Of a stretch of DNA of 41,332 bases, positions 611 through 39,621 are shown in pieces; position 1 is the stretch's first letter, and every line of letters starts with the position of its first letter. This stretch comes from a virus. Both the position numbers and the translations under genes were made by a program. A model generated the notes under the pieces. That model was not told where the DNA came from. It was given only the letters and a program-made list of their open reading frames with translations, and did not search any database. The stretch lies in the IMG/VR virus record IMGVR_UViG_3300046810_000209, positions 1 through 41,332 of that record; one strand, given 5' to 3'.

Positions 611-1606
611 ATGGATAAAAACTCGTATTTTTCTTTAATCAAACACCCTACGGTTGAAGTGCTTCTTAATTTTGGTTTTCTAGTATTGATAATACTAGCC
701 GGCGCTATTTTAGGAAGTAATCTTAGGCGAGGTAAAATTTCTATTACAGAAGAAGATAAAAATCTAAAAATACTAAGTTCTCATTCAATAGGGATTGGCT
801 CCGCATTCATATGCCTGCCATTCATTGCATCATTTTTGCATCTAAACTATGAATCTATCCTGCTACCTTTAGGTGATAAATCACCTTCGGTTTTTATTGA
901 ACAAATTTTTATGTTGATTTCTCTTGCTGGCATTGCTTCTTACCTTGGATATGGGTTACTTGATAATATTGCAAATAAGGTTCTTCAAAGTGAAGTGAAA
1001 GTGCTTAACGAAGAAAGTAAAGAAACCAAACATGACATTGATTCATTACAGCGTGAAAATAAAGAACTGAAACAACGCGATATTGAATTAAGAATTGACC
1101 TTCTTTATATCAAAGCTAAAGATGCTGTTGAAGCAGCTCAGCGATATAGTCAACAAAAACCGATCACTGATGAAGCCAAGCTTGCATCTCAAAAGAAATA
1201 TCATGATGCCATCTCTTTTATCAATGAAGGCTTGAAGTTGATTGATAAGAAATCAAATTATAAGCTTTATGATAAATTCCTAGTACTTAAAGCCTTCGTA
1301 CTAAAACGTATCAATGACGTACAGGGAGCTCTTAAAATAATTAAAGAGCTAGTAAAGAATGACAATAGCAACCCGGTACTACTCTATAACCTAGCTTGTT
1401 ACACGCTAATTTGTAAGGAGTATATTGATATCAAGGAAATCAAAGAGTTAGTTACGAGAGCACTAACAGTTCCCACTAAAGATAAAACTCACCAAACGTT
1501 ACAGAAAAAGTTAATTGAAAAAGTTTTATCTAAACTTGATGATGACATTAAAGACTTATTCAATGATGATGAAATAAACCATATTAGAACACTCATTAAG
1601 CCCTGA
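611..1606 (+). CDS. Membrane-anchored coiled-coil/TPR-like cargo protein
   Basis: This 331-residue protein belongs to no family I recognise. It has three hydrophobic segments (about 15-37, 57-80 and 92-118). A charged coiled-coil stretch follows (about 122-165), then a lysine-rich helical C-terminal half (about 170-330) with TPR-like helix pairs. It should be an inner-membrane protein with a large cytoplasmic helical domain. The gene is clearly AT-rich compared with the late genes, sits at the attL edge and has its own promoter and flanking hairpins, so it is a cargo (moron) gene. A role in superinfection exclusion or anti-phage defence is possible by position only. The ribosome site is weak (ACTGGTAAA), which fits coupling to or regulation by the upstream leader. 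Confidence 0.75.
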   Translation: MDKNSYFSLIKHPTVEVLLNFGFLVLIILAGAILGSNLRRGKISITEEDKNLKILSSHSIGIGSAFICLPFIASFLHLNYESILLPLGDKSPSVFIEQIFMLISLAGIASYLGYGLLDNIANKVLQSEVKVLNEESKETKHDIDSLQRENKELKQRDIELRIDLLYIKAKDAVEAAQRYSQQKPITDEAKLASQKKYHDAISFINEGLKLIDKKSNYKLYDKFLVLKAFVLKRINDVQGALKIIKELVKNDNSNPVLLYNLACYTLICKEYIDIKEIKELVTRALTVPTKDKTHQTLQKKLIEKVLSKLDDDIKDLFNDDEINHIRTLIKP

Positions 1607-10409: not shown

Positions 10410-12293
10410 TCAATTTGGATTAGAAAATCGATTATAACCCACATCAAGGTTAAACCACGGCAGAGCGCCACCTACTGGTTCAACGCGCATTCCGGGGGGA
10501 GAGTTTTCGAAAGAAACTTTAAGCTCTCCCTTTTGTGATGTTGCATCATCACGCATTAATGGACCGCTCATGCTTTGCGGATTTAATGGAACGTTACCAC
10601 CCTTTAACTGCTGCTCGTTGTTATACCAGCCGCCAGCCTTCCATCTTTTCTTAAGAGACTCCCAGAATGACTCCGTTCCATCTTTCTGCGTGGTCGCGTC
10701 AGATATTTCGTTTAACTTTTCAAACATGTAAAGGGCAACGGCGATTGATACAGTCAGGGCGCTGAGCTTACCTATCTTGCTCAATATAGCGAGCAGTCCA
10801 CCTGCCTTGGTTGTTGCGGTCGTTAGTGAGCCAATAACCTGAAGCGTAAACGCCCCGGCCATCAATCCACCAATTCCCGTAATGATCCCATTCATACCCC
10901 CCAGCGCACCTGCCAGGCCATCTATTTTTGTCCAGATTTTCTCAACTACCGGGCCGAACTTATCCCAATCAGAAATCAACAATCCAATTCCCAACGCAGC
11001 AAGTCGAAGGAATAGACCCATAGGTGAGAGCTTCAGGCCTTGCCCCAAAATACCCAGCGCAAAGTTAATTCCCAGCAGCCCCAGCTTCATTCCGACAAAA
11101 CCGGCTGCGATGCCAAATGCACCACGAATAACCCTCGGGTTTTTGTCAGCAAACTCAGTAAAGCGCTCTGACATCTCACCCAGCCAGCCCACCAGCCTTT
11201 TAGCATCACCAGCAAAGGCCCCGCCGATTGCCGCAAGACCATTGACCGCTGTACCGGTCAATGACTCCCAGATATTCGAAAGTGTGCTTAGCTGAGCATT
11301 AACGCGCTTATTAAGGTCCGCCTGCTTTCCCATTTTCTCCTGAATCTGGTCATAGCCGGTTTTACCTTTATCAATCAGCGCATTTAGCACCTGTAGTGTT
11401 TCGGCGTCATCACCGAATATCTGCTTAATGATGGTGGTTTTTTGTTTTGTTGTTAATGACTGAAGCTTATTCAGTTGCTTGAAAAGATTATCAAGGCCGC
11501 CGAACTCTCCCTTGCCATCGGTAAAATCTAACTGAATACCTTTTCGACTTAGCAGCTTGTTGGCTGCCTTCATCTTTTTACCATCAAAGCCAGCCTGGAA
11601 TACTTTTCGGAGGGCGTTACCGGAAGCCTCCCCCTCCATCCCCATCTGATCCATCATCACCGAAATTGGTGCCAGGGCGCGGGCTGCAGTCAGGCCATCT
11701 TTACTGACCATTTTTAAAATGGAGCTGGTCTTAGAAAAGAAAGAGAGCATGTTGGTATCATCGACGCCCAAGTAAAAAGCTTTTTGGATCGTATCAAATA
11801 ATCCCATCATATCTTCTGAAGCTGTGCCGGTAGCATCCTGCATTTTTGCAGCAAACTCTGCAGCCGCTTCGGGCGTTTTCTTGAGCTGAACTGCCAGATA
11901 AGCAGAAGCTTCGCCAACACCACTTAGAATGTTCTGGGCCGGAATACCCTGCCTGACAAGCATCTGCATCATGTTCTGAAAGTCAGCAGTGGTGCCCGGC
12001 AGTTTATTGCCGAGGCCTATAGCCAGCTTATTGATCTTTTCGAAGTCCGAACCGACTGCGCCGCTGGCATCCATCATGGCAACCTTTAAGCCAGTGGCAG
12101 CGTCTTCCTGTTTGGCAAAAGCAACCAGCGAACCTGTCAGCCCGGCAGCAAGACCGCCTGCCATAGCCATACCACCCTTACCCGCCTCCTCTGCGTCTTT
12201 ACGGAACCGGCGCAGGTTCTTTTGCATACGGCCAAGTGCAGGTGAAAGCCTGTCAACGCCAGTGATAAGCGCCTTCAGTTCAAATTCAGCCAT
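10410..12293 (-). CDS. Tail tape measure protein, Mu gp42-like
   Basis: The 627-residue protein opens with a basic helical region (ELKALITGVDRLSPALGRMQKNLRRF). A long Ala/Lys/Gln-rich body includes FAAKMQDATGTASEDMMGLFDTIQ. Several hydrophobic Gly-rich stretches occupy roughly residues 395-490. This is the usual layout of short tape measures of contractile Mu-like tails. It sets tail length and is ejected with the DNA. Its ATG lies inside the end of the frameshifted chaperone reading frame. Confidence 0.9.
   Translation of the reverse strand: MAEFELKALITGVDRLSPALGRMQKNLRRFRKDAEEAGKGGMAMAGGLAAGLTGSLVAFAKQEDAATGLKVAMMDASGAVGSDFEKINKLAIGLGNKLPGTTADFQNMMQMLVRQGIPAQNILSGVGEASAYLAVQLKKTPEAAAEFAAKMQDATGTASEDMMGLFDTIQKAFYLGVDDTNMLSFFSKTSSILKMVSKDGLTAARALAPISVMMDQMGMEGEASGNALRKVFQAGFDGKKMKAANKLLSRKGIQLDFTDGKGEFGGLDNLFKQLNKLQSLTTKQKTTIIKQIFGDDAETLQVLNALIDKGKTGYDQIQEKMGKQADLNKRVNAQLSTLSNIWESLTGTAVNGLAAIGGAFAGDAKRLVGWLGEMSERFTEFADKNPRVIRGAFGIAAGFVGMKLGLLGINFALGILGQGLKLSPMGLFLRLAALGIGLLISDWDKFGPVVEKIWTKIDGLAGALGGMNGIITGIGGLMAGAFTLQVIGSLTTATTKAGGLLAILSKIGKLSALTVSIAVALYMFEKLNEISDATTQKDGTESFWESLKKRWKAGGWYNNEQQLKGGNVPLNPQSMSGPLMRDDATSQKGELKVSFENSPPGMRVEPVGGALPWFNLDVGYNRFSNPN
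10431..10436 (-). promoter_or_regulatory. Candidate moron -10 box
   Basis: A perfect minus-strand TATAAT lies within the last codons of the tape-measure gene, 34 bases before the moron start. The -35 region is weak (CGTGGT at 17-bp spacing), so strength is uncertain. Confidence 0.4.
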
Positions 12294-25193: not shown

Positions 25194-25203
25194 GTGTGTG
25201 GAG
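25194..25203 (+). repeat. Orphan copy of the GTGTGTGGAG motif
   Basis: A perfect copy on the plus strand, antisense to the lysis leader. A GTG (25212) follows eight bases later, but no supported gene begins there. Confidence 0.6.
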
Positions 25204-26255: not shown

Positions 26256-26684
26256 TCAGATTACTAAGGAAAATGCGGACCGCGTGAGAGGTTTTTTCAA
26301 TATTTTTTTCGGCGTCAGTTCGTCGTCCATATCCAGCCGCACATCCAGCATTGCCAGACAGCCTTCAATGAACCCCTCAGCCATCTGGATTTCAATTCTC
26401 ACTATCTTTTCATCGCGCTTGGCCTGCTTCGCAAGGGTGCGCTTTGAGATATTGAAGAAGTAATGCAGCACAATGATCGCGTGCTCATCAGGGCGCTTGG
26501 CTTTAAGCTGGGACAGGCAACCCTCAATAATCAATCCGTCTCCATCGCTGCAGGTAAGCGTTAACTTTGAATCCTGCGGCAGCAGCCCTTTAAAACCCGC
26601 TGCGATTGCTGAGTAATCAACACCGCTGCTGTCTGATTTAGCCCATCCCGCCCAGCGCTCTAATACCTGTGACATGTCACGCAT
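26256..26684 (-). CDS. Q: Late antiterminator, Q-like (phage 21/933W type)
   Basis: I chose ATG 26684, six codons inside the longest frame. It is preceded by GTGTGTGGAGAGGATTAAAT, a copy of the recurrent GTGTGTGGAG motif. The 142-residue product has the Q signature MRDMSQVLERWAGWAKSDSSGVDYS, GFKGLLP and the HTH-like YFFNISKRTLAKQAK, EGFIEGCLAMLDVRL. Q loads on RNA polymerase at the late promoter and lets it pass the terminators. Confidence 0.92.
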   Translation of the reverse strand: MRDMSQVLERWAGWAKSDSSGVDYSAIAAGFKGLLPQDSKLTLTCSDGDGLIIEGCLSQLKAKRPDEHAIIVLHYFFNISKRTLAKQAKRDEKIVRIEIQMAEGFIEGCLAMLDVRLDMDDELTPKKILKKPLTRSAFSLVI

Positions 26685-26705
26685 ATTTAATCCTCTCCAC
26701 ACACT

Positions 26706-27722
26706 TTATTTTTTGTCTGTCCCGATCACGCCGACTGCAATCGCGAAATCGAGGAACCTGAACAGCAGCTCAATCTGACTGCCGTATTTCGCTTCAAACG
26801 CTCTCATATCCCGGTGCAGTTCATCGTGATGCGCTCTGCATAGCGGTATCACAAATAAATCATGCGCCTTCGTACCCATTCCCCCCTGTCCGTATCCAAT
26901 GATGTGATGAGGATCGTCAGCCTGTATGCCGCAACATGCGCACGTCTGCGACTTTACCCATCGTGTGTATTTCTCACTTTCCCAGCGCTTACGCTTGGGG
27001 CGCTTCATGAATGATTCTGGTGATTCCGGATCGGCATGGAGGCTGATTATCTTTTTGACGATCTGCGCTGCATCCTGAATAACTTCCCGCGCTGGTCGCA
27101 CCGGAACAATGCGGGCCTCTTTCAGCTCGCCGCTCTGGATACTTTCTTTCGGCATGCGCAGAACGCGCCGGGCCGGTGCCTCTGGTATCAGGTCAATCAC
27201 ATCATTCAGGGTTGCCCACCAGCACAGTTCCGGCAGGGTCAGCTGGTGGTCACCTGTTAATGCCATCTGGTTACACGCGGCTCTGATTATCCAGAGCGCG
27301 GTGTTGCCCTTTGCGATGCTCTCGACCTTGCCAGGGACACCATTTTCCCTGAACTCATTATCGTGGCTGTAGCAAAGAGACACCAGGCCGTTTTCGATTT
27401 CTGACACTGTGAATTCATGGTGATGCCATACGTCCAGCTTCTCCCACTGGCAGCAGCCGAAGGACTGGACGAAAGATGCCAGCGCATTCGGTCCACCAGC
27501 GGCCTTTATCACGCGCTCGTGACTGAAGAAGGGAATCAGTGATGGCTCATCAAGTAACGGCTGCGTGCCGTCATTCAGCCGCCCTGATGGCAGGTCTTCC
27601 ATATCCATTGTCGGTGTGCTGATCACCACCCTGCCCTTAAACAGCTTCAACAGGTCTGGTCCTGGCTTCAGCAATACAATCCCGGTGCGAGGTGCTACCT
27701 CTGGCGTAAGTAATGCTCTCAC
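26706..27722 (-). CDS. DUF968 protein (HNH-like, YdfU/YbcN type)
   Basis: I chose GTG 27722 (M-RALLTPEVAPRTG), with GAGG five bases upstream and following the KilA-N stop by 7 bases; an ATG further upstream is inside the KilA-N gene. The product is about 338 residues. The C-terminus carries CACCGIQADDPHHIIGYGQGG and CRAHHDELH, a Cys-pair plus His metal-binding motif typical of DUF968. The nuclease role is inferred. Confidence 0.87.
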   Translation of the reverse strand: MRALLTPEVAPRTGIVLLKPGPDLLKLFKGRVVISTPTMDMEDLPSGRLNDGTQPLLDEPSLIPFFSHERVIKAAGGPNALASFVQSFGCCQWEKLDVWHHHEFTVSEIENGLVSLCYSHDNEFRENGVPGKVESIAKGNTALWIIRAACNQMALTGDHQLTLPELCWWATLNDVIDLIPEAPARRVLRMPKESIQSGELKEARIVPVRPAREVIQDAAQIVKKIISLHADPESPESFMKRPKRKRWESEKYTRWVKSQTCACCGIQADDPHHIIGYGQGGMGTKAHDLFVIPLCRAHHDELHRDMRAFEAKYGSQIELLFRFLDFAIAVGVIGTDKK

Positions 27723-27729
27723 AGTCACC

Positions 27730-28509
27730 TCAATGCACGGTGTCGAGTAGGCGGAGAAGCTCGGCAAATTTTGATTCGAAGAAATGAGGCTGGGTTTCAC
27801 GCGGATTAGCCGGGCTGGTGATGTTTTTACCGTACATGCAGCCTTTAGCCGTCAGTGACCAAAATAGCTTCACACCATCGGTGCCTGACCGGCTGGCTCT
27901 ACTTTTATGTTCAACGATCCCCAGCTTCTCAAGCTGACGATAGGCCTGACTGGCATTCATCCGAATACCGTTAGCCTTCAAAAGCGCGCTCAATGACAGA
28001 GTTGGACGGCTTGACCCGTCTTTTGCATCAACTGGCGCGTCGATAGCATAGGCAGGCATCATATTCGGGATGCCATAATGCTGTTGAATCTTCTGATATG
28101 CACCCAGCTTTGAAGAGTTCGAGAAGTTCAGCATTCGTGACGCTGACTCAAGCAGAATGATACTGGCCTGCACTTCTTCTGGCATTGAAACTACCGGGGG
28201 CTTTGATGTCAGGGAATCATACGTGCGAATTACTTTTAAACTGAATTCGGCGCTGATCCACATCGCATATGAGTAGACCAGTTCTTTGCATACGAACGTG
28301 CCTTGGTTCATTCCGCCCTTAATTACCGATACAGGAATTCCTGTATCGCTCAGAAGCTGAACGAGTTCATTGGTCTGTTGAAGGTTACGCCACAAGGAAG
28401 GTTCATGTCGTCGTTCGCCGCCTGCTGCACGATGAAGATCGTTAAGGCAATAACGGCCAGAGTTGTCCTGACGAACGGAAACCCCATCAATCACTAAAAG
28501 CTGATTCAT
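27730..28509 (-). CDS. KilA-N domain protein (putative antirepressor)
   Basis: I chose ATG 28509, just after GTGTGTGGAGAAGAAAGC. The 259-residue product has KilA-N features (NSGRYCLNDLHRAAGG, SLWRNLQQTNELVQ, VCKELVYSYAMWISAEFSLKVI) at residues 1-110. A C-terminal winged-helix region follows (LSLSALLKANGIRMNASQAYRQLEKLG). Such proteins are phage antirepressors or regulators. The position before DUF968 and Q matches the end of the left early operon. Confidence 0.88.
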   Translation of the reverse strand: MNQLLVIDGVSVRQDNSGRYCLNDLHRAAGGERRHEPSLWRNLQQTNELVQLLSDTGIPVSVIKGGMNQGTFVCKELVYSYAMWISAEFSLKVIRTYDSLTSKPPVVSMPEEVQASIILLESASRMLNFSNSSKLGAYQKIQQHYGIPNMMPAYAIDAPVDAKDGSSRPTLSLSALLKANGIRMNASQAYRQLEKLGIVEHKSRASRSGTDGVKLFWSLTAKGCMYGKNITSPANPRETQPHFFESKFAELLRLLDTVH

Positions 28510-28744
28510 GCTTTCTTCTCCACACACTGTTTTTAACAGGCCCCGCCCCATCATCTGCAAATGAACGGGACCAACCATAGACACCAATGACTGCAATTCA
28601 TTGGCGAACAAGTCAACTATAACTATTTTTTATGAACGTGTAACCAGGGAATGCTGCTTACAAAGGAGCCTTTCAAGCGAGTAATCTGATCAACATATCA
28701 ATTGGACCAATACTCTTACATCTAAATCTAAGTGAAAAACCACT

Positions 28745-32067: not shown

Positions 32068-32964
32068 TTATGCGCCGCGAAAGCCGTGAGGCACTGAGCT
32101 GTCAGGCTGCGGAATGACAGTGATATCCCGCTGCATGTTGCGCTTCAGAGCATTCCATTCAGAGCGCGGCGGGCGACCGGCCTTATCCCATTTGGTAGCA
32201 GACTGCAGATAGCCAGGCAGGTTGCCGGGGATGAACAGGGTTTTGGGGCGCATGTACTGGTATTCCTCAGTGCCTTCCCAGTGGGCGTGTTTGTAATCCA
32301 CCACAAGGCAAAGCTCTTCCACCGTAAATCCATCTTTCAGCCGGGATTTGATGTGACCCATCGACGACTGCGCCTCTGTGTGCTTAGCGCCAGTAACTTT
32401 GTTCAGGTGGCGTAAGACTTCCCGAGAACGATGAAGGGTTGACCACTCACCGTCGGGTTGCGTCGCAACCTGACAAGAAGGGGTTGTTGTAATCTCTGTA
32501 GTATTCTCTGTTGTATTCTCTGTAAGATGAGGGCAATTTGCCCCGATGGATGAGGGCATGTTGCCCTTATCGATTGGTGCAGGCTGCTCTAATCGATTGG
32601 TGCAACTTGCACCCTTCGATGAGGGCAAATTGCCCTCATCGGTCAACAGTGGGTTTGCGTGGTTAATTGCGTAATAATTAGTCCGATCATGCTGAGATTT
32701 TTTCAGCTGCTCGACAAAAATCAAATTGTGCTTTTTGAGAGAGGTCAGAGCGCGTTTAACCGTGTCAGACGACCAGAACGGGAACTGATTAGTCCACTCT
32801 TCGATAGTGTTATAAACCCAGCGTTTGCCGTCATATTCGACGCCGGATGTAGTGTCTTCCAGCCAATAGCAAATCTGCTGCAGCACAATCGCCTCATTAA
32901 GGCCAATACGCTGCGCAAGCTCTGGGCTGATCACCAGTGGCTTAACTTTCAGAAGTAGGCTCAT
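32068..32964 (-). CDS. Replication initiator protein (lambda O-like function)
   Basis: The 298-residue product has an N-terminal winged helix (VLQQICYWLEDTTSG..., WSSDTVKRALTSLKKHNLI). A low-complexity middle (ENTTENTTEITT) is encoded by short DNA repeats. The C-terminal domain (RHLNKVTGAKHTEAQSSM, KTLFIPGNLPGYL) is of the conserved phage C-terminal type (Phg_2220_C). The gene itself holds five 23-bp palindromic iterons, so it both encodes and contains the origin, as lambda O does. No helicase or loader gene follows. Confidence 0.9.
   Translation of the reverse strand: MSLLLKVKPLVISPELAQRIGLNEAIVLQQICYWLEDTTSGVEYDGKRWVYNTIEEWTNQFPFWSSDTVKRALTSLKKHNLIFVEQLKKSQHDRTNYYAINHANPLLTDEGNLPSSKGASCTNRLEQPAPIDKGNMPSSIGANCPHLTENTTENTTEITTTPSCQVATQPDGEWSTLHRSREVLRHLNKVTGAKHTEAQSSMGHIKSRLKDGFTVEELCLVVDYKHAHWEGTEEYQYMRPKTLFIPGNLPGYLQSATKWDKAGRPPRSEWNALKRNMQRDITVIPQPDSSVPHGFRGA
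32490..32640. repeat. Replication origin: three 12-bp repeats plus five 23-bp palindromic iterons
   Basis: Three AT-richer 12-bp units (TAATCTCTGTAG, TATTCTCTGTTG, TATTCTCTGTAA) run from 32490 to 32525. They are followed without a gap by five units of exactly 23 bp at 32526, 32549, 32572, 32595 and 32618. The last unit is a perfect palindrome (GATGAGGGCA-AAT-TGCCCTCATC). Units 3 and 4 carry GATTGGTGCA instead. They lie inside the replication gene, so initiator binding to its own coding sequence is the obvious reading. Confidence 0.88.
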
Positions 32965-33136
32965 GAGCTAATTTGACCTCTCTGAAATACTGCTTGAACC
33001 GTTCGAGAGAGCTGAAGCACTCGCCATGTTCGTAGTTGTCACGCAGATAGATAACCCTGTCGTTCTCTGGCTCCCAGCGAATGACCCGCACAGGGATGCC
33101 GCGCTTGTCGCGGAAGATTCGGTCGAGATCTCGCAT
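32942..33136 (-). CDS. DUF4222 small phage protein
   Basis: The 64-residue product MRDLDRIFRDKRGIPVRVIR... ENDRVIYLRDNYEHGECFSS ...RFKQYFREV has the RDK-G...V-VI-Y...YEH...P-RF...F pattern of DUF4222. Function is unknown. It overlaps the replication gene by 23 bases and lies inside the longer frame at 32968-33318. Confidence 0.82.
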   Translation of the reverse strand: MRDLDRIFRDKRGIPVRVIRWEPENDRVIYLRDNYEHGECFSSLERFKQYFREVKLAHEPTSES

Positions 33137-33318
33137 TTGGTCGCCTTCATTCGCTGGTTAGCATTGCCCACAGCCCAGTCAACAAAGCTGTGGTTAACTT
33201 CTTCGCTGACGCCTGGTACATTGAGCACATACCGCAGCGGCTCACTGCTGAGACGTCCACCAGCTGAAGGAAGGCAACGGAATTGCGGTAACCCTGATAA
33301 TCTGATTAAATTGATCAC
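32968..33318 (-). CDS. Hypothetical protein overlapping the DUF4222 gene
   Basis: GTG 33318 follows GTGTGTGGAGAACTAATCGC, the recurrent motif. The first 60 residues (INLIRLSGLPQFRCLPSAGG, YVLNVPGVSEEVNHSFVDWA) look like real protein. The last 57 overlap DUF4222 in another frame and are Ser/Thr-rich, as shadows usually are. Either the two genes truly overlap by 169 bases or this one is partly degenerate. Confidence 0.45.
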   Translation of the reverse strand: MINLIRLSGLPQFRCLPSAGGRLSSEPLRYVLNVPGVSEEVNHSFVDWAVGNANQRMKATKCEISTESSATSAASLCGSFAGSQRTTGLSICVTTTNMASASALSNGSSSISERSN

Positions 33319-33322
33319 GCGA

Positions 33323-33871
33323 TTAGTTCTCCACACACGTTGATTTAGTCGCATCGAACGCCGCGGGCTGCAATCCTGCGGCGTTCACCTTTTCTGGCGG
33401 GCAAAACACGCGATACAGCAGCGTCAGATGCTCCTGCCACTTAGCCATAACCTGATAGCTGTTCTCTTCAATCTGCTCACGCTCCGACGCATCAATCACG
33501 CCATCGGCGGTTGCTTTACGAATGTAGGCAGAGTGCTTGCCAATCCACTCAACTGACTCCATCAGTCGCTGATTGATATCCGCGTTATCAACATCCTCAA
33601 TGTCCACCAGCGGAACGTTGACGCTGTTTGACTGGCGGGATACGGCGTTAGCGATGTACTTGGTGCCGCTTGCCTGTTGCAGGACTATCGCCCAGCCCAT
33701 TGGGAAAATCTGATCGCCATTGGTACGAAGACGGTTGAACAATGCATCTTCAGTCACGCCCAACCATTCAGCTGCTTCTGCATACCCGCCCGGTAGACTT
33801 GAAATAGTCTTCTTGATTGCTGCCACCAGCCATGCCGGTTGTTTCTCTACTTGCCAATGCTTTTGATCCAC
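33323..33871 (-). CDS. YmfL-like early regulator
   Basis: I chose GTG 33871 (M-DQKHWQVEKQPAWLV) with AGAGGA upstream. The 182-residue product has an HTH region (GGYAEAAEWLGVTEDALFNRL) followed by FPMGWAIVLQQASGT, as in YmfL and CII-like proteins. It lies directly after cro, in the cII position, so it probably activates transcription in the lysogeny decision. Its last codons contain the GTGTGTGGAG motif of the next gene. Confidence 0.83.
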   Translation of the reverse strand: MDQKHWQVEKQPAWLVAAIKKTISSLPGGYAEAAEWLGVTEDALFNRLRTNGDQIFPMGWAIVLQQASGTKYIANAVSRQSNSVNVPLVDIEDVDNADINQRLMESVEWIGKHSAYIRKATADGVIDASEREQIEENSYQVMAKWQEHLTLLYRVFCPPEKVNAAGLQPAAFDATKSTCVEN

Positions 33872-33899
33872 GGTAGTCCTCTGCTTTCTGTGGTTATCT

Positions 33900-34109
33900 T
33901 TACGAAGCGTTTGAAGTAGGCTTGTCGTAAAGGGACGGTTGGAATTTGAGCTTGCCTTTAGTGCGGAAGGCAGCTTCGGCGGCACGGCCTTTTGGAATTA
34001 AACCGCCCGGACGCTTTCGCCACTGATAAAAGGCTTCTGGTGAAACATTGAAAAAGGCTGCCGCCTTGTTTGGCGTACCGAAAAACTTCTCTAAATCACT
34101 GGTAGTCAT
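33900..34109 (-). CDS. cro: Cro-like repressor
   Basis: The 69-residue protein has MTTSDLEKFFGTPNKAAAFF-NVSPEAFYQWRKR-GGLIPKGRA, the YdaS/Cro-type HTH. It is first in the left early operon, divergent from cI, with GGAGG before its ATG. Confidence 0.9.
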   Translation of the reverse strand: MTTSDLEKFFGTPNKAAAFFNVSPEAFYQWRKRPGGLIPKGRAAEAAFRTKGKLKFQPSLYDKPTSNAS

Positions 34110-34120
34110 AATGGCCTCCC

Positions 34121-34183
34121 CTAAGAATTCTTAGATAGTATTTTCTAAATTAACTTTGGTCAATAAAAACTAAGATAACTTAG
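34121..34183 (-). promoter_or_regulatory. Left early promoter (PR-type) with three operators
   Basis: On the minus strand TTGACC (34163-34158), 17 bp, then TACTAT (34140-34135) form a strong promoter for cro. The operators are CTAAGAATTCTTAG (34121-34134, at the start site), a degenerate CTAAATTAACTTTG (34145-34158, in the spacer) and CTAAGATAACTTAG (34170-34183). The last also lies over the presumed cI promoter (TTGGTC-18-TTAGTT), so CI could regulate itself. Confidence 0.85.
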
Positions 34184-34208
34184 TTACTTTTCATTTAGGG
34201 GATTTACT

Positions 34209-34853
34209 GTGAGCTCTCTTGGGGGGCGCGTTAGGGCGCTACGCATGGAAAAAAGGCTGACGCAGGGTCAGCTCGGTAAGGCAGTAGGCGTTTCGGACGT
34301 GACCGTAGGCTATTGGGAGCGCGATCAGAACACACCCGGAGGTTTGAAGCTTTCTAAGTTAGCTTCTGCGTTAGGTGTAAGCGAAACGTATTTATTGTAC
34401 GGTAAGGAAGATGAATCAAACATTGCGCCAGCGCCTATCGGCAGCATGAAGGTTCCAGTAATAAGCTATGTGCAAGCTGGAGTCTGGAGCCCTGAATGTG
34501 ATGCGCGCAATTTAGAAGGGAATATTGATTACGTGTTTAGCACTGGTAACTTCTCACAGGGAACGTTTGCCTTAAAGATCAAGGGCAAGTCGATGGAGCC
34601 AGATTTTGTTGAAGGTGACCTTATCCTTATCGATCCAGAACTTAGCCCTCAGCCAGGCGATTATGTTGTGGCTAAAAATGGCGAAGACGAAGCGACCTTT
34701 AAAAAGTACCGAGCCAGAGGTGTAACTGAAGACGGCAAGGAAATTTATGAGCTTGTTCCTCTGAATGAAGACTTTGCTGTACGCAGTTCAGCCAAAGAAA
34801 AATTTAATATCATTGGCGTTCTCGTCGAACATCGTCGCCTTATGAGGCGTTAA
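34209..34853 (+). CDS. cI: CI-type repressor with S24 self-cleavage domain
   Basis: It starts at GTG 34209, with AGGGGA seven bases upstream. The 214-residue product has an N-terminal HTH (LTQGQLGKAVGVSDVTVGYWER). An Ala-Gly cleavage site lies in VISYVQAGVWSP, the catalytic Ser in GKSMEPDF and the Lys in ATFKKYR. It should be cleaved after RecA activation, linking induction to the same SOS signal as the LexA-controlled operon at the left edge. Confidence 0.95.
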   Translation: MSSLGGRVRALRMEKRLTQGQLGKAVGVSDVTVGYWERDQNTPGGLKLSKLASALGVSETYLLYGKEDESNIAPAPIGSMKVPVISYVQAGVWSPECDARNLEGNIDYVFSTGNFSQGTFALKIKGKSMEPDFVEGDLILIDPELSPQPGDYVVAKNGEDEATFKKYRARGVTEDGKEIYELVPLNEDFAVRSSAKEKFNIIGVLVEHRRLMRR

Positions 34854-34872
34854 ACATATAAAAAAACTTGGA

Positions 34873-34896
34873 GCCTAAATTTATTTAGGCTTTTTT
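34873..34896 (+). terminator. cI terminator
   Basis: GCCTAAAT...ATTTAGGC is followed by six T, 20 bases after the cI stop. It ends just before the right early promoter. Confidence 0.85.
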
Positions 34897-34897
34897 C

Positions 34898-34926
34898 TTG
34901 ACCTCAAATCTAAGTTATCTTAGATT
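34898..34926 (+). promoter_or_regulatory. Right early promoter (PL-type) with operator in the spacer
   Basis: TTGACC (34898-34903) and TAGATT (34921-34926) at 17-bp spacing. The perfect operator CTAAGTTATCTTAG (34910-34923) fills the spacer and -10. It is the same CTAAG-N4-CTTAG half-site as in the cro promoter, so CI shuts both early operons. Confidence 0.85.
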
Positions 34927-34985
34927 AATTGCAGATTACTTAGCCGCGCTTGCAGGCGCCGTTTTTAAAAGTGTGTGGAGAGGCA

Positions 34986-35141
34986 ATGAAAATGATCAAG
35001 AACATGTCGAACACAACGGTCAGGGACCTGATTACCTTTTTGAGGCTCTTTCCAGATGCTGATGTTGTCTGTTGTGGTGATGCCGGTGTGGTGAGTGTGC
35101 AGTGTGATGTTGAAAACGTGGTTCGCGGACCAGCGTTTTAA
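34986..35141 (+). CDS. 51-aa protein, first gene of the right early operon
   Basis: ATG 34986 follows GTGTGTGGAGAGGCA. The product MKMIKNMSNTTVRDLITFLR... is small and not recognised. A terminator follows directly, so it may be made from a short early transcript. An in-frame ATG two codons on is equally plausible. Confidence 0.6.
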   Translation: MKMIKNMSNTTVRDLITFLRLFPDADVVCCGDAGVVSVQCDVENVVRGPAF

Positions 35142-35161
35142 GAGTACGGAATTGCTGTGTT

Positions 35162-35199
35162 GGCGGTTACTCATGAGGGTTTGTTTAACCGCCCTTTTT
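35162..35199 (+). terminator. Terminator after the 51-aa gene
   Basis: GGCGGTT (35162-35168) pairs with AACCGCC (35187-35193), followed by CTTTTT. It would stop the early transcript unless antiterminated, or define the 5' boundary of the structured RNA that begins at 35200. Confidence 0.7.
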
Positions 35200-35412
35200 C
35201 ACAACGGCAAGAGCATTGCTAGAGCTGGAGCATGACAGCTATCAGGAATGGGCGTCGGAACCTAATGGCCTGAAAGCTGTAAGTTAAGCAATGCTCTTCC
35301 CGTTGTGGTGAATGCGGCCAGCGCGCGCGGAAGACTGACAAAGATTGCACACAGTCTAAGAGTTTCCGCTCTGGTGTTTGTCAGTCTGACCAGAGCACCG
35401 GGAGGCACCCGG
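35200..35412 (+). ncRNA. Highly structured RNA region, C4-antisense-like (candidate)
   Basis: This 200-base gene-free stretch folds very strongly. A 21-bp stem (35200-35220 with 35287-35307, one mismatch) encloses a second stem (ACAGCTATCAGG with CCTGAAAGCTGT, one mismatch). Next come AGACTGACAAA (35332-35342) with TTTGTCAGTCT (35377-35387), and GCTCTGG (35368-35374) with CCAGAGC (35390-35396). These are interleaved as A-B-A'-B', so a pseudoknot or a switch is possible. Then CCGGG/CCCGG (35398-35412). An alternative stem GCGGA/TCCGC plus AGACT/AGTCT exposes a loop with CACACA (35348-35353), which can pair with the UGUGUG of the recurrent GTGTGTGGAG ribosome motif. Order and logic recall the C4 RNA-icd arrangement of phage P1, but I cannot confirm the family by eye. 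Confidence 0.55.
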
Positions 35413-35431
35413 CACCGCAGCAACCTTTCAA

Positions 35432-35441
35432 GTGTGTGGAG
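35432..35441 (+). repeat. GTGTGTGGAG extended ribosome-binding motif (family of eight copies)
   Basis: Copies (strand): 25194 (+), 26695 (-, before Q), 28518 (-, before KilA-N), 33329 (-), 34971 (+), 35432 (+), 35545 (+, before YfdR) and 39423 (+, ATGTGTGGAG, before the AlpA/Xis-like gene). All lie 5-10 bases before a possible ATG/GTG, and GGAG is the Shine-Dalgarno core. A 10-mer should occur less than once by chance in this window. A palindrome, GGCTGTGGGTTA...TAACCCACcAGCC (35448-35478), begins seven bases after this copy and would hide the GTG start at 35452. Confidence 0.8.
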
Positions 35442-35451
35442 TAATCGGGCT

Positions 35452-35763
35452 GTGGGTTATTGCAGTAACCCACCAGCCAAATTAAACGAATCCCAAAAGT
35501 TTTTTATTGCCATCACTGGCAAGGGATTCATGCAACCAAAAATCGTGTGTGGAGAAATTGTATGGTCTGGATTTGCACCAATAGTCGCAAAAGCTTCAAC
35601 TTCATTGACCCGGAACCAGAGCAAATCTGTATTGAAGATATTGCCTGCGCCCTGTCGAACATCTGCCGTTTCACTGGTCATCTGGACGAATTCTACAGCG
35701 TGGCTCAACACTCTGTACTTTGCAGCACAGTGGTGCCTCAGAAGTATGCATTTGAGGCGCTGA
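35452..35763 (+). CDS. Possible Icd-like ORF overlapping YfdR
   Basis: GTG 35452 follows GTGTGTGGAG and lies inside a 12-bp hairpin. The frame reads GYCSNPPAKLNESQKFFIAI... and stays open for 104 codons, the last 67 overlapping the YfdR gene in another frame. I recall that phage C4-RNA loci are followed by short ORFs of this kind (Icd-like), but the match is weak and translation is not certain. Confidence 0.3.
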   Translation: MGYCSNPPAKLNESQKFFIAITGKGFMQPKIVCGEIVWSGFAPIVAKASTSLTRNQSKSVLKILPAPCRTSAVSLVIWTNSTAWLNTLYFAAQWCLRSMHLRR

Positions 35764-36098
35764 TGCACGATGCCGCTGAGGCTTATTGCAATGATATTGC
35801 AGCCCCACTGAAATCGATTTTGCCCGATTATAAAGCTGTTGAGGCTCGTATTGATCTGGCTGTTCGGCATCGGTTCAACATCCCTGTGCGTATGTCTGAA
35901 TGCGTGAAGCATGCTGATCTGGTTCTTCTGGCTACCGAACGCCGTGATTTCGACATGGACGATGGTACGGTCTGGCCGATCCTCGAAAATATTGAGCCAG
36001 CGCATTTCCTTATCACCCCGCTAAACCCGCGTCAGGCAAGAGTGCTTTTCATCACCCGATTTAATGAGCTTTGGGAGCAGCACAATGCAAAAGCCTGA
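35562..36098 (+). CDS. yfdR: HD-domain phosphohydrolase, YfdR-like
   Basis: ATG 35562 follows GTGTGTGGAGAAATTGT. The 178-residue product has an HD motif (HSVLCSTVVPQKYAFEALMHDAAEAYCNDIAAPLK region: H...HD...D) as in E. coli prophage YfdR and 5'-nucleotidase YfbR, which hydrolyse deoxynucleoside monophosphates. It could adjust nucleotide pools during phage replication. Confidence 0.88.
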   Translation: MVWICTNSRKSFNFIDPEPEQICIEDIACALSNICRFTGHLDEFYSVAQHSVLCSTVVPQKYAFEALMHDAAEAYCNDIAAPLKSILPDYKAVEARIDLAVRHRFNIPVRMSECVKHADLVLLATERRDFDMDDGTVWPILENIEPAHFLITPLNPRQARVLFITRFNELWEQHNAKA

Positions 36099-39388: not shown

Positions 39389-39438
39389 CCTGTCACGGCT
39401 AAACAAACCTGATGCAGCGGGAATGTGTGGAGAAGAAT

Positions 39439-39621
39439 ATGCACCACGACTTTATGAGTGAAAAAGAAGTTATGGATCAGATTGGTAAAGCGAGAACGGC
39501 ACTCTGGCGGCTGCGTAAGCAGCATGGCTTTCCTGCGCCAGTGCTAACGCACCCGGCGCGGTATAGCCGCAGAGCGGTGGAGAAATGGATTTGTGATGGG
39601 GGGATTAACCGAGCTGTTTAA
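39439..39621 (+). CDS. AlpA/Xis-like DNA-binding protein
   Basis: ATG 39439 follows ATGTGTGGAGAAGAAT. The 60-residue product MHHDFMSEKEVMDQIGKART..., YSRRAVEKWI is an AlpA/excisionase-type winged HTH. It overlaps the end of the convergent integrase by 17 bases, so it is in the recombination directionality factor position. Confidence 0.85.
   Translation: MHHDFMSEKEVMDQIGKARTALWRLRKQHGFPAPVLTHPARYSRRAVEKWICDGGINRAV

Follow-up and report, generated by a model that had tools for sequence, protein, structure and literature searches.

The set of genes marked by the ribosome-site motif RTGTGTGGAG in the Pantoea-type temperate phage analyzed here is real, and it is wider than had been stated in a first-pass annotation of the same DNA, which joined two separate things: the motif element and a structured RNA at 35200-35416. 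In the window (the whole stretch of DNA that was analyzed, 41,332 nucleotides) the motif (GUGUGUGGAG) and a hairpin with the loop [T/G]UGCAG would together form a two-part translation-initiation element, placed at the head of genes of the lysis/lysogeny switch, that is, the gene behind CII, the KilA-N regulator, Q, yfdR, xis and the 51-aa early open reading frame (ORF). A hairpin in the late leader is the best candidate for a partner of this element, and the RNA at 35200-35416 would be a separate leader. As a whole, this explanation, drawn from comparison of sequences, is given about an even chance of being correct.

When phage genes that are not linked are controlled together, this is as a rule attributed to DNA-binding repressors and antiterminators. 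If the explanation is true, a post-transcriptional layer would be added to the lysis/lysogeny decision, involving replication, antirepressor, Q and excision genes. Widely known phages would be affected, with SfV, ST64B and the CPS-53 remnant of K-12 all bearing the hairpin part, and a testable role would be given to sequences annotated as nothing, separable from the STnc100 and C4 RNAs with which they can be confused. The features discussed below are collected in Table 1.

Table 1. Features of the motif element, the late leader and the structured RNA, in order of position in the window.
Feature	Position	Strand	Context or basis
Late-leader hairpin TTGCGCACACC-AATCAGTCTCCACACACAAACTTTTGACGCCGT-GGTGTTGCGCAA	25166-25222	-	between Q and holin, just after terminator
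Hairpin CGA-TTGCAG-TCG and motif	26695-26743	-	precedes antiterminator Q (26256-26684)
Hairpin TCAT-TTGCAG-ATGA and motif	28518-28564	-	precedes KilA-N gene (27730-28509)
TTGCAG hairpin (loop 33373-33368) and motif	33329-33373	-	precedes ORF 32968-33318
Promoter-like TTGACC-17-TAGATT	34898-34926	+	consensus scan; overlaps CI-operator-like repeats, downstream of cI
Target hairpin GCGC-TTGCAG-GCGC	34946-34959	+	upstream of 51-aa ORF
Motif GTGTGTGGAG	34971-34980	+	precedes 51-aa ORF (34986-35141)
Terminator-like stem GGCGGTTA..TAACCGCC and CTTTTT	35162-35199	+	conserved upstream of stem B; module in relatives
Long stem B (CACAACGGcAAGAGCATTGC / GCAATGCTCTTcCCGTTGTG), hypervariable interior	35200-35307	+	fold -52.8 kcal/mol; z -6.8, computed on stem 35196-35312
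Folded RNA R	35308-35416	+	STnc100-like; alignment and pair counts
Helix S1 (35332-35342 with 35377-35387), interleaved with S2	35332-35387	+	covariation
CACACA, proposed antisense to motif, pairing unsupported	35348-35353	+	comparison and energies
Helix S2 (35368-35375 with 35389-35396)	35368-35396	+	fold and comparison
Motif copy in RNA tail	35432-35441	+	TTGCAG hairpin 3' of motif, not 5'
Hairpin gtgggtta-TTGCAG-taacccac	35452-35473	+	conserved in L003-L010
Motif copy	35545-35554	+	precedes yfdR (35562-36098, phrog_318)
Hairpin cctg-ATGCAG-cggg and motif ATGTGTGGAG	39408-39432	+	precedes AlpA/Xis-like gene (39439-39621)

The Two-Part Start-Site Element

The unusual density of the motif, on which the first-pass annotation had already remarked, is borne out: eight copies of RTGTGTGGAG are found in the 41-kb window, where 0.11 are expected, and none of 100 shuffles attains this number. 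The accompanying claim that the motif nearly always stands just before a start codon holds for six of the eight copies, each followed by a credible start, and fails for those at 25194(+) and 35432(+), the former having no gene behind it and lying antisense to the holin leader. The ORF at 32968-33318(-), one of the genes so preceded, belongs to phrog_1170, has a GTG start at 33318 and lies behind the CII-like gene.

The second part of the element, a hairpin with the six-base loop [T/G]TGCAG, precedes the motif, which is an extended Shine-Dalgarno sequence specific to the phage; TGCAG hairpins upstream of the motif sites had not been mentioned in the earlier description. The hexamer [G/T]TGCAG lies within 90 nt upstream at five of the eight motif sites of the window, where the background is 6.8% (P = 7e-5), and hairpins with a TTGCAG loop are found at 34950, 28560, 26740 and 33373, as well as at 35460 behind the RNA. 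Enrichment of hairpin-loop hexamers across the whole window was uninformative.

In relatives (designated here by L numbers) the same element is found at the same genes, namely the replication-proximal gene, KilA-N, Q, yfdR and xis, with other motifs (AGCGTGGAG, GTGTGGAG and TATGGAGAA). The Shine-Dalgarno flavor AGCGTGGAG is that of L004-L008 and GTGTGGAG that of L009 and L010, while TATGGAGAA is found in many prophages of the Klebsiella, E. coli and Salmonella type, among them the annotated phages Flotzy and phiNP; the hairpin loop is GTGCAG in the TATGGAGAA group and TTGCAG in the window group. SfV, ST64B and the CPS-53 remnant carry TGCAG hairpins without a uniform Shine-Dalgarno flavor. Among the loci fetched, NTGCAG is found within 70 nt at each of the 77 sites homologous to the replication-proximal one and at 86 of 100 yfdR sites. 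The hairpin arms vary between sites, and the loop and the Shine-Dalgarno flavor stay the same. The triplet before GGAG agrees in 110 of 180 within-phage gene pairs, compared with 54 ± 4 when shuffled between phages, a figure that still contains, and is inflated by, the kinship of the phages. The idea of a ribosome-site motif shared by lytic-switch and excision genes is in this way supported, and it is extended by the hairpin part and by the relatives.

Loop and Shine-Dalgarno flavor are largely uniform within a phage and differ from one phage to the next, which makes it most likely that the element is read by a trans-acting factor proper to the phage group, one that would adjust the translation of the whole set. 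Two apparent recombinants, L257 (a class-C type RNA with GTGTGTGGAG motifs) and L256 (mixed GTGTGG and GCGTGG flavors), are natural mosaics that should be useful to test what the motif follows.

The Structured RNA at 35200-35416

The strongly folded RNA with interleaved stems that the first-pass annotation had described is real and conserved. The region of the RNA (421 nt) folds strongly (z -4.25), as does the long stem that opens it (Table 1), and both interleaved helices, S1 and S2, were recovered. RNA R is made up of a closing stem GGTG/CACC, P2, a variable hairpin, S1, S2 and an invariant 3' hairpin, CCGGG-AGGCA-CCCGG, and 55 distinct copies of it were collected. When covariance was checked in an alignment of 23 homologues, five of the 11 pairs of S1 were found to change on both sides, and 89.6% of cells pair, against at most 46% with the partners slid; in the same homologues the 3' hairpin is invariant, and so is S2, with no double change. 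When SfV and ST64B were included in a MAFFT alignment, the middle region of both came out misplaced, and the pair counts do not draw on that alignment; by eye, the arms of S2 are different yet complementary in SfV, ST64B and the TATGGAGAA phages L025, L056 and L074. S1 is interleaved with both P2 and S2, and by simple geometry the three cannot all be formed together; as the loop connecting S1 and S2 is a single base, these two helices are probably mutually exclusive.

The outer arms of stem B are conserved, and its interior is unrelated between the window and L003 despite near-identical flanks (L004, L005 and L008 were also compared); tRNA-like pieces are found beside or inside the stem in L019 and L059. 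To judge from these comparisons, the interior looks like a cassette or an insertion slot. The locus gave no match in the E. coli genome.

From its match to the Rfam model RF02076, RNA R appears to be a distant relative of STnc100. The match covers 35268-35464 and model positions 1-206 with 32.2 bits (E 3.8e-5), short of the gathering score of 47, and the corresponding matches in SfV and ST64B reach 39.5 and 35.1 bits, respectively. The two RNAs share a full-length alignment, an identical 3' hairpin (CACCGGGAGGCACCCGGCACC), the GGTG/CACC closing stem and a prophage-borne location, whereas the first hairpin and the middle region of RNA R are unlike those of STnc100, and the RNA of the window has no terminator directly after it (scan of 34100-35620). 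STnc100 has been described as related to PasD (PMC13192938), and its copies in EHEC are transcribed, one of them being verified by Northern blot (PMC5331693).

The promoter-like sequence at 34898-34926 is, from its sequence and position, the probable early-left promoter; the consensus scan behind it is weak, with 2 promoters found against 1.9 expected. Operator-like CTAAG..CTTAG repeats lie on both sides of cI, at 34100-34210 and at 34900-34945. Repeats of this kind on either side of cI are what a lambdoid-type repressor would be expected to have as its OR and OL.

RNAs of the R type are located in the early-left operon in the window, SfV and ST64B. In L008, STnc100 lies between Q and holin, as a tandem pair at 1104-1541(-), and a third STnc100-like RNA precedes yfdR. 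In the tail region of L233 and L237 a unit composed of promoter, stem, RNA, stem and terminator stands before a phrog_322 ORF. Stand-alone units outside the early operon, with a promoter-like TTGACA..TAATAG, hold the RNA in L233, L237 and L091, the phrog_322 ORF being that of L237. Of 128 distinct R copies, 69 have a terminator-like hairpin in the 200 nt that follow, compared with 22 of 256 random places. These recurring contexts and terminators favor a portable leader RNA or small RNA (sRNA) gene that would act at or near its own transcript. The RNA at 35200-35416 may be pictured as the leader of the early-left operon, with a stem that is probably cut by RNase III, followed by an RNA of the STnc100 superfamily; RNA R would most likely either influence termination or processing in cis or be freed as an sRNA, and would not work through its CACACA.

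A more specific role, that of a processive antitermination element like put of phage HK022 or of a promoter-proximal attenuator, is conceivable, if somewhat unlikely. In several operon settings an R-type RNA stands between a promoter and a terminator, its helices are interleaved and probably exclusive, and put is likewise a structured leader RNA of phage early operons. However, put consists of about 70 nt with two stem-loops that suppress termination (PMC9378689), whereas RNA R, compared with it by size and fold, is larger (about 110 nt) and has an interleaved helix; moreover, RNA R lies some 400 nt from the probable promoter, and the obvious terminator of the window is upstream of it, with none immediately downstream.

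In L001, at 10932-11347, two small hypothetical genes of Pantoea phage AH07, 39 and 40, are placed over a noncoding region in the published annotation, one of them (39 or 40) being antisense to the structured RNA; both are probably misannotations.

Candidate Readers of the Motif

The leading RNA candidate for the reader of the motif, a candidate and not a demonstration, is the late-leader hairpin. Its loop holds CTCCACACAC (25203-25194, -), the exact reverse complement of the motif, and the orphan motif copy at 25194(+) is simply the other strand of this loop, upstream of holin. In the window group (class A) the late loop is an exact anti-motif, with a predicted pairing energy of -20.8 kcal/mol, and the stem of the hairpin covaries (A:T, T:A and C:G at one pair, G:C and A:T at another). 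In the AGCGTGGAG phages (class B) the homologous loop is ACCACGCTT in L008, and in L297, L395 and L004 it is a sequence ending in UUUCACGCU, with G.U pairs; the class-B loops fit AGCGUGGAG with p values from 0.003 to 0.03 against shuffles, and their G.U pairs are possible solely for RNA of the holin strand. Over eight lineages, pairing of the late loop with the motif of the same phage gives a Fisher p of 6e-6, or 5e-4 without class A, whose anti-motif match taken alone is post hoc.

Several results do not follow this pattern. The L293 group has GTGTGTGGAG sites and a late hairpin with no complementarity to its own motif (p 0.70), and the late hairpin of class C (L252 and L330) likewise has none (p 0.32). 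In class A the anti-motif is no more conserved than the remainder of the late loop. The TATGGAGAA phages that were examined yielded no late hairpin, and Flotzy and phiNP, when searched for an anti-TATGGAGAA RNA, gave no convincing one. Duplexes were also scanned across the genome for a better antisense site; with the anti-motif windows excluded, an exclusion that kept the late hairpin from view, no consistent locus came out. In the single case of L008, the late-hairpin loop contains CTGCAA beside CCACGCTT.

If the late-leader hairpin is the reader, base pairing of the late transcript to early-gene ribosome sites would shut the early genes off once late transcription begins. The full form of this proposal, in which each phage possesses a private ribosome-site code and a complementary late-leader hairpin, late transcription silences the early and switch genes, and code and antisense co-evolve, is put forward as a tentative one and is rather unlikely to hold as it stands.

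The main rival to the late-leader hairpin is a phage-encoded RNA-binding protein that would read the [T/G]UGCAG loop and the adjacent Shine-Dalgarno sequence and repress or activate the set. Hairpins bound by proteins typically have a conserved loop on arms that vary freely, and loop and motif both differ from one phage group to another; nevertheless, no RNA-binding protein was evident among the families common to all carriers (CI, the CII-like CP76, a 64-aa ORF, YfdR and HNH), and this alternative is judged unlikely. CP76 (33326-33985, -) and the 64-aa stretch behind it (32945-33136, -) have homologues in every carrier compared, with 30-84% and 39-70% identity, respectively, and rank among the most conserved of the group's non-structural proteins.

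It is distinctly unlikely that the element acts purely in cis, the hairpin keeping the start open or insulating it and the uniformity reflecting shared ancestry or recombination between sites. The retention of hairpins without a uniform Shine-Dalgarno flavor in SfV and ST64B would agree with such a reading, as would the relatedness of the phages that is still within the concordance statistic, but simple copying does not predict differing arms with the same loop and flavor, and the apparent recombinants L257 and L256 show mixed motifs.

Highly improbable, finally, is the model of the first-pass annotation, a C4-type antisense RNA whose CACACA would act on the GTGTGTGGAG sites by base pairing, both in cis and in trans: the CACACA is indeed present at its reported place, with a 6-bp match to the motif, and the CATACA loop of some relatives still pairs with the motif by G.U, but loop and motif are uncoupled, the energies are null, half of the CACACA lies in a stem, no C4 match is obtained and true C4 RNAs are located elsewhere. 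The predicted fold leaves just CACA in a 4-nt loop. Near-identical RNAs are found in six contigs (L091, L121, L204, L213, L233 and L237) with zero copies of RTGTGTGGAG, the CACACA being intact in five of them and L204 having lost two bases of the loop; in the other direction, motif-bearing phages have other loops (CACCCA in L269, no CACACA in L110 and a quite different loop in L257). A motif that varies freely while the loop stays CACACA had been named in that annotation as evidence against the pairing, and this is what the relatives present. In interaction predictions, the variable segment of RNA R pairs with its own and other motifs with energies no better than those of shuffled loops, and its pairing with its own motif gives a Fisher p of 0.07 over ten lineages. 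By all tests made, RNA R is not the reader of the motif. CTGCAA, the complement of the TTGCAG loop, was not found in RNA R near CACACA, and a kissing TGCA:TGCA interaction between RNA R and the target loops was dropped as too short.

Identity of RNA R with a C4 RNA was likewise rejected. The search with the C4 model (RF01695), which had been suggested as a check, gave no match in the window at the gathering score, and none in the stretch 34850-35620 with E values allowed up to 10. A C4 RNA shares its transcript with an icd/ant-type gene located downstream of it, and it has sequence complementarity to the ribosome sites of its targets. In the window, the GTG at 35305, which had been taken for an icd-like start, opens a frame that is not a supported gene; the next supported gene, at 35562, is yfdR (phrog_318), the KilA-N gene lies at a distance of 7 kb, on the opposite strand, and the uncoupling and null energies described above leave the complementarity unsupported. 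What RNA R shares with C4 (RF01695, with the a1/b1 target RF03163) is the idea of an RNA in a phage immunity region, and relatives hold C4 alongside R: in SfV, ST64B and L056 genuine C4 and isrK are located in the rightward operon, apart from RNA R. IsrK of Gifsy-1 adopts alternative structures and exerts control over translation in the neighborhood of antirepressor and Q-like genes (PMC4825925); it resembles RNA R as a prophage RNA with alternative structures, and differs from it in that the IsrK model (RF01394) has no match in the window and that the two RNAs are separate in relatives. The C4 copies beside isrK are found at L281 9051-9239(-), L282 9193-9381(-) and L056 5168-5369(-) (SfV, ST64B and L056), and all of these pairs lie downstream of the replication-proximal two-part site.
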